Shown here piece by piece: positions 1-3,754 of a DNA stretch of 64,000 nucleotides (position 1 is the first letter of the stretch; every line of letters begins with the position of its first letter). The stretch covers positions 1-64,000 of the forward strand of contig CAUJDW010000040.1 of assembly GCA_963169455.1 (NCBI GenBank), written 5' to 3'. Source of the DNA: Bacteroidota bacterium (GTDB lineage Bacteria; Bacteroidota; Bacteroidia; Chitinophagales; Saprospiraceae). The position numbers and the translations under genes are program-made. The notes under the pieces are model-generated. The model did no database searches. It had not been told where the DNA came from and saw only the letters and a list, made by a program, of their open reading frames with translations.

Positions 1-280
1 TGGGATTTCTCCCGCTTTCTCTCGGAGAGGTCATCCAGATTAAGGTAGGACTGCGACGAGTAGTCCATACTCCATGGGATTTCTCCCGCTTTCTCTCGGA
101 GAGGTCATCCAGATTAAGGTAGGACTGCGACCCCAGGAGCCGCCAACTATACATAATTTCATATTTGACTCGGAGAGGTCATCCAGATTAAGGTAGGACT
201 GCGACTTGACCATCATAGAATCGTACAATTCCTGGCCATATTCCTCGGAGAGGTCATCCAGATTATGGTAGGCCCCGCTC
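1..280 (+). CRISPR. Right-hand end of a probable CRISPR array (3 perfect repeats and 1 degenerate repeat)
   Basis: A 37-bp sequence beginning CTCGGAGAGGTCATCC and ending GGACTGCGAC occurs exactly at 21-57, 95-131 and 169-205. A fourth copy at 244-280 matches well only over its first 29 bases and then diverges. Spacers are 58-94 (37 bp), 132-168 (37 bp) and 206-243 (38 bp). The partial spacer at 1-20 equals the last 20 bases of spacer 58-94, so one repeat-spacer unit may be duplicated. The period (74, 74, 75) is not a multiple of three, which argues against a protein repeat. Degeneration of the 3' end of the last repeat is typical of the leader-distal end, so the leader and any cas genes should lie left of the window. 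No cas gene is present here. Confidence 0.75.
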
Positions 281-313
281 AAGAAGTTGTACGGCTCGTT
301 GCACTTCGCCCAC

Positions 314-518
314 AACTTCTAAAGAGCGGGGTGTCGCTCACCGCGCTTCGGGAATGCGGGAAGCGGTTCGCTCCAACTGCTTCTGCAGGCGGGGCCATCC
401 GGGCTTGCGACGTTTACTAAACCTCCAAGGTTTAGTAAACGTATGTAACTTCTAAAGAGCGGGGTGTCGCTCACCGCGCTTGGGGAATGCGGGAAGCGGT
501 TCGCTCCAACTGCTTCTG
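314..518. repeat. 72-bp direct repeat pair flanking a perfect hairpin
   Basis: A 72-bp sequence starting AACTTCTAAAGAGCGGGG occurs at 314-385 and again at 447-518 with one mismatch. Between the copies lies a perfect 14-bp inverted repeat (410-423 with 429-442, 5-base loop). The segment has no credible coding sequence. It looks like an intergenic repeat family or the remains of a small non-autonomous element next to the CRISPR array. Confidence 0.7.
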
Positions 519-2332: not shown

Positions 2333-3754
2333 ATGCCAGATCGAAATATGCCGGAACAAGATGATCCTAAACGGGGCATCCCGCTGGAGGAAACAGAACA
2401 AGCACAACTGCCGAAAGGGAAGAACTATCTCTTTGTGGTAGGCATCGACCAGTACACATCCATGCCGAGTCTGTACAATGCAGTCAAGGATGCGCAGAAA
2501 GTGATGGAGGTGCTGACCGCAAAGTACCAGTTCGATAAGGACAACCTGGCAACGCTCTTCAACGAGCAGGCCACCCAGCGTGCGATCATCGACCAGTTGA
2601 AGGCCTACGCCAAAACCGTTACCGAAGAAGACACCCTGTTGATGTACTTCGCCGGCCACGGAGAGTACGAGGAGATCGTGGACGTCGGCTACTGGATACC
2701 CATCGACGGGCGGCGGGGGGAGATCGGCACCTTTATCTCCTTCGACCTCGTAACCCGCCTGCTGCGGGCCATCAAATCCCGCCATACCTTCCTGATCACG
2801 GATTCCTGTTATTCCGGCAGTTTCTTCACCACCCGCCGGGCGGCTACGGCTGCCGACCGCCTCGAAAGCCTGCCTTCCCGCTGGCTGCTGACCGCCGGGC
2901 GCAAGGAAGTGGTCTCCGATGGCTGGGAAGGGGGGCACAGCCCATTCGCCCAGGCCGTACTCTGGCACCTGAACAACAACAAGGAACCCCGCATGAGGGT
3001 GTCTCAGTTCTGCAATGAGGTGGTGGTGGCAGTCGGCAACAATGCCGAGCAACTGCCGCGCGGGGCCGCCCTGCAAAACGTGGGCGATATGGGCGGCGAG
3101 TTCATGTTCCGCCTCAAGGAATACAAGGATGCTGTGTTCGAAACGCCGGACGCGGCAGCCCCCGCTTCCGGGCCAACGCGAAGCCAGGAACCGCAAACCG
3201 GAAACAAGGAACCAGAAACCATGAACCCGGAACCGGAAACCCGGAAACCGGAACCCCAACCTCTCCACACCATCGAAGACGTCCGCAACCGCCTCAAGGG
3301 CCTGCTCAAAGACAGCGATTTCAAGGGGGTCTTTGATTTGCTCAACCAGATCATCGACGACCGCTCGCGGCGGGAGAACGACGTCATCATGCAGCAGAGC
3401 CAGTTCAGCAGCATCAGCAACCAGGTGCGCAGCGGGCTGGTGGACCCCAGCTTTGCCAATATCACCCTCAACCGCATCCGCTTCGCCCTGACGTCCATCA
3501 TCGACGAACTGGAGGCGGCCGACCTCAGGGCCGGGGTGCTGCAGCCCCGGGCCGGCAGCGCCGCCGCCGGCGCCTATCTGGACGAACTGGAGCGCAAGGG
3601 GCTTCTGGAACAGGCCGAAACCCTGCAGAAAAAGCTCAACCTGTTCAGGCAGGAACTGATCAAAGCCTACGACGCCAACCAGAAATTCGCCCTGCAGGAA
3701 CAGATCGCGGAAACGGAGCGTCAAATCAGGGAAATCAGGGGTAAGCTGGGGTGA
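2333..3754 (+). CDS. Caspase-like (C14) protease with C-terminal EAD11-like domain
   Basis: A 473-residue cytosolic protein. Residues about 28-260 are a caspase-like domain with catalytic His109 (YFAGHGEY) and Cys159 (ITDSCYSGSFF). A repetitive Pro/Glu/Thr-rich linker follows (about 275-310), encoded by low-complexity GGAACC/GGAAAC DNA. Residues about 312-395 resemble effector-associated domain 11, a helical adaptor that in prokaryotic conflict systems brings effectors together. A coiled coil (about 415-473) ends the protein. The caspase domain aligns along its length with that of the DGR target at 46695-48827, so the two are paralogues, but this one lacks the variable domain. Its predicted role is a proteolytic cell-suicide or defence effector; its partner is unknown. 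The EAD assignment is from pattern recognition and should be confirmed by a profile search. Confidence 0.8.
   Translation: MPDRNMPEQDDPKRGIPLEETEQAQLPKGKNYLFVVGIDQYTSMPSLYNAVKDAQKVMEVLTAKYQFDKDNLATLFNEQATQRAIIDQLKAYAKTVTEEDTLLMYFAGHGEYEEIVDVGYWIPIDGRRGEIGTFISFDLVTRLLRAIKSRHTFLITDSCYSGSFFTTRRAATAADRLESLPSRWLLTAGRKEVVSDGWEGGHSPFAQAVLWHLNNNKEPRMRVSQFCNEVVVAVGNNAEQLPRGAALQNVGDMGGEFMFRLKEYKDAVFETPDAAAPASGPTRSQEPQTGNKEPETMNPEPETRKPEPQPLHTIEDVRNRLKGLLKDSDFKGVFDLLNQIIDDRSRRENDVIMQQSQFSSISNQVRSGLVDPSFANITLNRIRFALTSIIDELEAADLRAGVLQPRAGSAAAGAYLDELERKGLLEQAETLQKKLNLFRQELIKAYDANQKFALQEQIAETERQIREIRGKLG

Follow-up and report, generated by a model that had tools for sequence, protein, structure and literature searches.

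What is the short run of direct repeats with which this stretch of DNA begins, and which CRISPR system of the genome built it? The window, meaning the whole stretch of 64,000 bases that was analyzed (C40:1-64000), lies on contig C40 (80,885 bases) of an assembly that comprises 162 contigs and 6.77 Mb. The initial annotation had read its first 280 bases as a probable CRISPR array truncated at the edge, with a rearrangement suggested at the array end.

Structure of the array at the contig edge

A 37-bp repeat, CTCGGAGAGGTCATCCAGATTAAGGTAGGACTGCGAC, occurs on the + strand in three identical copies at 21-57, 95-131, and 169-205, followed by complete spacers of 37 bases (58-94), 37 bases (132-168), and 38 bases (206-243), respectively. 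The array opens at 1-20 with a spacer of which the contig edge has left only the right end, and it closes at 244-280 with a degenerate terminal (trailer) repeat, which agrees with CTCGGAGAGGTCATCCAGATTAAGGTAGGACTGCGAC at 30 of 37 bases: 28/29 in the first part (244-272) and 2/8 in the last eight bases (273-280). The three exact 37-bp repeats, the 37-38 bp spacers, and the degenerate last copy that had been annotated were thus confirmed, and identical direct repeats, unique spacers of similar length, and a degenerate repeat at the trailer end together make up a CRISPR array. A 31-base core of the repeat was found three times in the window, compared with zero in dinucleotide-preserving shuffles of the window, and CTCGGAGAGGTCATCCAGATTAAGGTAGGACTGCGAC was detected in the genome on C40 only, even at three mismatches. 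Base 1 of the window is base 1 of C40, so it is the contig edge, not biology, that cuts the array. An ORF reading of the first 12 kb of C40, with a family search of seven ORFs, detected no leader, cas gene, or further repeats.

Bases 1-57 are exactly identical to 75-131 (1-20 to 75-94), so the end of the first visible spacer duplicates the end of the next one, as had been noted; the cause may be duplication of a unit or, at a contig edge, a loop made by the assembler. An identity at the very start of a contig, as an assembler loop could give, would suit a non-CRISPR tandem repeat or an assembly chimera, but the spacers are unique, the period is constant, and the assembly holds a sister repeat in an array with Cas1-Cas2, which makes such an origin extremely improbable.

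CRISPR spacers usually, but not necessarily, match mobile elements. The search of phage and plasmid databases that had been recommended was performed, and it returned no target beyond chance. Phage BLAST of each spacer gave no match or matches at chance level; the rows listed for 206-243 had an E value of 0.5 and covered at most 71% of the spacer, and no target was found for 58-94 or 132-168. When IMG/VR was scanned seven times for exact matches to pieces of 19-22 bases from the three spacers, none was obtained; 22 bases of the repeat core were absent from IMG/VR, plasmid BLAST of 1-280 gave no match, and BLAST of window bases 1-700 against the own genome gave no spacer match elsewhere. As no protospacer was found, no spacer of the window is shown to target anything. 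In itself, the array in the window is an ordinary, routine CRISPR end.

Related CRISPR loci in the same genome

Contig C24 (9,677 bases) carries, in this order, a reverse transcriptase (RT), Cas1, a DUF1016/YhcG nuclease, Cas2, an AT-rich leader, and an array that extends to the contig end. The run from the retron-type RT to Cas2 lies at L009:3706-7891, before the leader and array, and family matches were obtained for Cas1 (TIGR00287, 217 bits), DUF1016/YhcG (PF06250, 185 bits), and Cas2 (TIGR01573). The closest named relative of this Cas1 is from a Phaeodactylibacter MAG (84%), followed by a Saprospiraceae MAG (53%). The C24 array contains 20 copies, 19 of them complete, of the 36-bp repeat ATCAGAGAGCCATCCAGATTAAGGTAGGACTGCGAC, and the contig ends inside a repeat. 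A 26-base core, exactly the last 26 bases of the window repeat, occurs 22 times in the genome; 19 of these copies are on C24 and three on C40.

Contig C33 (10,825 bases) carries Cas6b, Csm1-Csm5, a 244-aa unknown protein, and a leader and array with a third, clearly different repeat. Csm1 (Cas10) and Csm2-Csm5 were located at C33:2525-8855, which gives the genome a type III-A effector set. The C24 and C33 leaders are 69% identical over 376 bases; the repeats end in ACTGCGAC on C40 and C24 and in ACTGCGAA on C33. Two proteins flanking the effectors (L022:833-1855 and 8986-9720 of C33) had no Pfam match, and the former, which on visual inspection resembles a membrane protein, could have an ancillary effector role.

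We conclude with good confidence that bases 1-280 belong to a type III-A array of a Saprospiraceae-like bacterium and form its trailer end, the oldest part, farthest from the leader. This explanation is the most likely because C24 shares the repeat core behind a leader and adaptation genes, and C33 carries type III-A genes with a related leader. The annotated reading as a truncated CRISPR array is borne out by this 20-copy array of a related repeat directly behind Cas1-Cas2, together with type III-A effectors in the same assembly. As in type III-A (Csm) systems, the genome has Cas6, Csm1-Csm5, and Cas1-Cas2, the repeats are 36-37 bp, and the last eight repeat bases are shared; in contrast, the adaptation and effector genes are here on separate contigs, with different repeats and related leaders. 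Since the type III-A effector genes adjoin a clearly different repeat and are not on C40, the effector assignment for the window array rests on genome context. Against it stands C34 of the same genome, which has an additional Cas1 and a different array.

In the proposed working of this type III-A array, transcription would start from a leader to the left, outside C40, and Cas6 would cut 8 bases before each repeat end, so that ACUGCGAC remains as the tag. In type III systems, the guides keep the last eight bases of the repeat as a tag. The guides would then load onto a Csm/Cas10 complex, and Cas1-Cas2, assisted by a retron-type RT, would have written the spacers. A retron-type RT-Cas1 adaptation module is present on C24, and the window array is connected to it only via the shared repeat core.

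Because its repeat differs and its spacers are longer than those of C24, the window array is probably not the C24 tail but a separate array that uses a sister repeat. The C40 repeat has 37 bases compared with 36 on C24, with four differences including one inserted base, and the C40 spacers (37, 37, and 38 bases; only three) are longer than the 18 of C24 (32-37 bases; exact two-sided Mann-Whitney p = 0.003). Conceivably, C40 could instead carry the far end of the C24 array, the repeat having changed over time with the old 37-bp form kept at the trailer end. C24 ends in a repeat and C40 starts in a spacer, the orientation fits, and a block change of this kind was observed in the relative G348, where 36 copies are followed by five leader-distal ones differing at one base and then a degenerate last copy. 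We nevertheless regard a C24 tail as the less likely option: the G348 blocks differ at one base only, whereas here the four differences include an inserted base and no intermediate was seen, and the longer C40 spacers also argue against it.

The broken array end and its flanking elements

The terminal repeat is intact through base 29 but for one base, and its match to CTCGGAGAGGTCATCCAGATTAAGGTAGGACTGCGAC ends at 272, just ahead of the expected 8-base tag, ACTGCGAC. A hairpin with the arms CCGCTCAAGAAGTTGT and ACAACTTCTAAAGAGCGG abuts the broken repeat at about 273-329 (+), and the fold of 244-330 has an energy of -33.1 kcal/mol (z -3.6). A stable hairpin within the single repeat was also considered and rejected, its fold being no better than that of shuffles (z 0.85). 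Further right on the + strand lie two copies of a 77-bp direct repeat at 314-390 and 447-523 (96%), which flank a near-perfect palindrome of 33 bp (410-442). The palindrome is dispersed in the genome; it and the direct-repeat pair also occur on C33, and the stretch 314-572 as a whole is found at C33:263-520 (90%).

The annotated recurrence of the junction sequence at 653-667 was found as an exact match: GGTAGGCCCCGCTCA occurs at 267-281 and 653-667, and the match extends to 22 of 24 bases at the second copy (653-676, +). These are its sole exact copies in the 6.77-Mb assembly, and about 0.2 matches per window would be expected by chance at up to two mismatches. A dispersed repeat was rejected as the nature of GGTAGGCCCCGCTCA, since 23 places genome-wide matched at up to two mismatches compared with 29 for the reversed control. 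The suggested rearrangement at the array end was upheld in part. The last repeat breaks at the start of the tag and runs into a stable hairpin element, which makes the rearrangement plausible; however, no intact reference showing the event was found. In the terminal repeat, just the 8 bases encoding the tag would have been lost, beside an inserted or adjoining hairpin element, and as no spacer follows this repeat, there would be no selection for a tag there. Terminal repeats altered at the 3′ end are common according to a passage of PMC8047081.

The few visible units, the hairpin and repeat elements at the end, and the lack of spacer targets found would also fit a decaying orphan array from which guides are no longer produced. 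Remnants with two copies of similar repeats are present in the relatives G199 and G137, and one copy at a contig edge in G019. However, decay would not have kept the three internal repeats of the window identical, and the adaptation and effector genes have full-length frames elsewhere in the genome, so we consider a remnant unlikely and retain the reading as a type III-A trailer end.

Comparable array ends were observed in two relatives. In G235 (L112:8113-9350), the regular array is followed by units of about 300 bases that contain repeat cores, and in G137 (L046, G137:C320, reverse strand 1-450), degenerate CRISPR repeats are broken up by short palindromes such as TCCGCCTTAGGCGGA. From these two cases, it may be usual in the host's family for repetitive elements to overrun the ends of arrays.

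Two further loci lie near the array end in the window. A ribbon-helix-helix protein and a PemK/MazF-like toxin (1341-1909) are a probable toxin-antitoxin pair, and a gene at 2333-3754 encodes a caspase domain and an EAD11 effector-associated domain. A link of the latter to the array, comparable to the caspase-like partner of type III-E, was rejected, as 15 caspase-domain matches in the genome indicate that a caspase gene beside the array is not special.

A retron-type reverse transcriptase beside Cas1 in the host's family

The C24 RT (P0001) matched its best retron model with 183 bits compared with 48 bits for group II maturase, and PADLOC ranked its RT models for the retron types XII and XI first. 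Its best solved relative is the retron Ec86 RT (109 bits, compared with 30 bits for Cas6-RT-Cas1), and it contains the motifs NAxxH, YADD, and VTG, as such motifs are described in part of the text of PMC6868368. Judged by sequence, P0001 is a retron-type RT. Few retron RNAs are included in Rfam, and with this sparse set no match for an msr-msd RNA was obtained on C24 or C33.

Relatives of P0001 were searched in 398 genomes of the host's family, drawn evenly from a larger group, so that rarer relatives may be missed; at E ≤ 1e-40, 51 matches were obtained in 48 of the genomes. The 30 best were checked with flanks of up to 1.5 kb, a step in which a Cas1 profile was built from four sequences, leaving out the Cas1 of C34; the other 21, along with three of the first 30 that were re-examined, were checked in larger stretches. 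Cas1 is a close neighbor of the RT in 48 of the 51 loci, downstream in 32, upstream as Cas1-Cas2-RT in 15, and divergent in one (L148, G082:C78, the sole divergent pair). No Cas1 neighbor was seen for the remaining three RTs: in G365, the contig ends 463 bases past the RT and Cas6 precedes the RT; in G107, about 2.3 kb were seen after the RT; and in G143, the RT lies within a 921-aa frame. Cas6 or Cas2 stands directly before the RT in several relatives. Simple patterns for the RT motifs were found in the 30 best RTs as [YF]xDD (30/30), NAxxH (27/30), and VTG (24/30). The RT and Cas1 distances correlated with r = 0.92 over 27 pairs, and none of 2,000 permutations was as high; together with the Cas1 neighbors of 48 of the 51 RTs, this points to a long-kept partnership of RT and Cas1, although shared vertical descent alone could also give such a correlation.

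A DUF1016 protein follows Cas1 in 10 of the 23 RT-bearing loci that were laid out (G000, G199, G050, G270, G103, G235, G326, G124, G017, and G246), and the 13 loci lacking it include short ones such as G218, with little sequence after Cas1. Cas2 follows DUF1016 in nine of the ten, with none seen in G199; the C24 gene order thus recurs in nine more loci of the host's family, one of them lacking a visible Cas2. All ten proteins have the core [IV]DLVFYH ... [DE]xK. The C24 protein was matched by the CRISPR-associated PD-DExK model PDLC01464 of PADLOC (E 3e-28), and because this model already exists, the link of DUF1016 to CRISPR is not wholly unseen. A literature search for DUF1016 with CRISPR gave no paper on this link among the titles returned.

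A retron-like CRISPR RT has been described in one case, that of Haliscomenobacter hydrossis, in passages of PMC5541045 and PMC6013744, and the case is repeated in a passage of PMC8934634. In the text consulted of PMC5541045 (2017), a recent retrotransposition or mobile-element insertion in one species is considered as a possible origin of this RT. An excerpt of PMC11014452, citing a 2019 paper, mentions small, more recent CRISPR RT clades related to retron and Abi-P2 RTs, and a term search of the available text of PMC5513706 gave no mention of retrons. Literature searches returned no printed account of the spread of the retron-type RT lineage in the host's family. The known retron-like lineage (H. 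hydrossis and the clade cited in PMC11014452), as far as those excerpts describe it, likewise has a free-standing RT adjoining Cas1, but here 48 of 51 RT relatives lie beside Cas1 and ten loci have DUF1016 after Cas1, rather than a single case. In the group II-intron-like RT-Cas1 fusions (Marinomonas mediterranea, in the part consulted of PMC11014452), the RT was shown to work with Cas1-Cas2, as it would here; in contrast, the genes here are separate and the RT is of the retron type (183 vs 48 bits). Retron-derived CRISPR RTs are therefore known as a minor lineage, and what is new is their breadth in the host's family and the nuclease.

As a tentative proposal, which is possible rather than probable, the window array may be one product of a family-wide module in which a retron-derived RT without an msDNA RNA works with Cas1-Cas2, and the DUF1016/YhcG PD-(D/E)XK nuclease trims cDNA or prespacer ends in place of Cas4 or DnaQ nucleases, the lineage thereby recording RNA. 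The wider context is of greater importance than the array: a family-wide retron-type RT-Cas1 module, with the nuclease in a subset, merits a bench test. Spacer acquisition from RNA could be tested with many pairs of free-standing RT and Cas1, of which ten have the extra nuclease. If the proposal is true, this type III-A lineage would record RNA by a retron-type enzyme.
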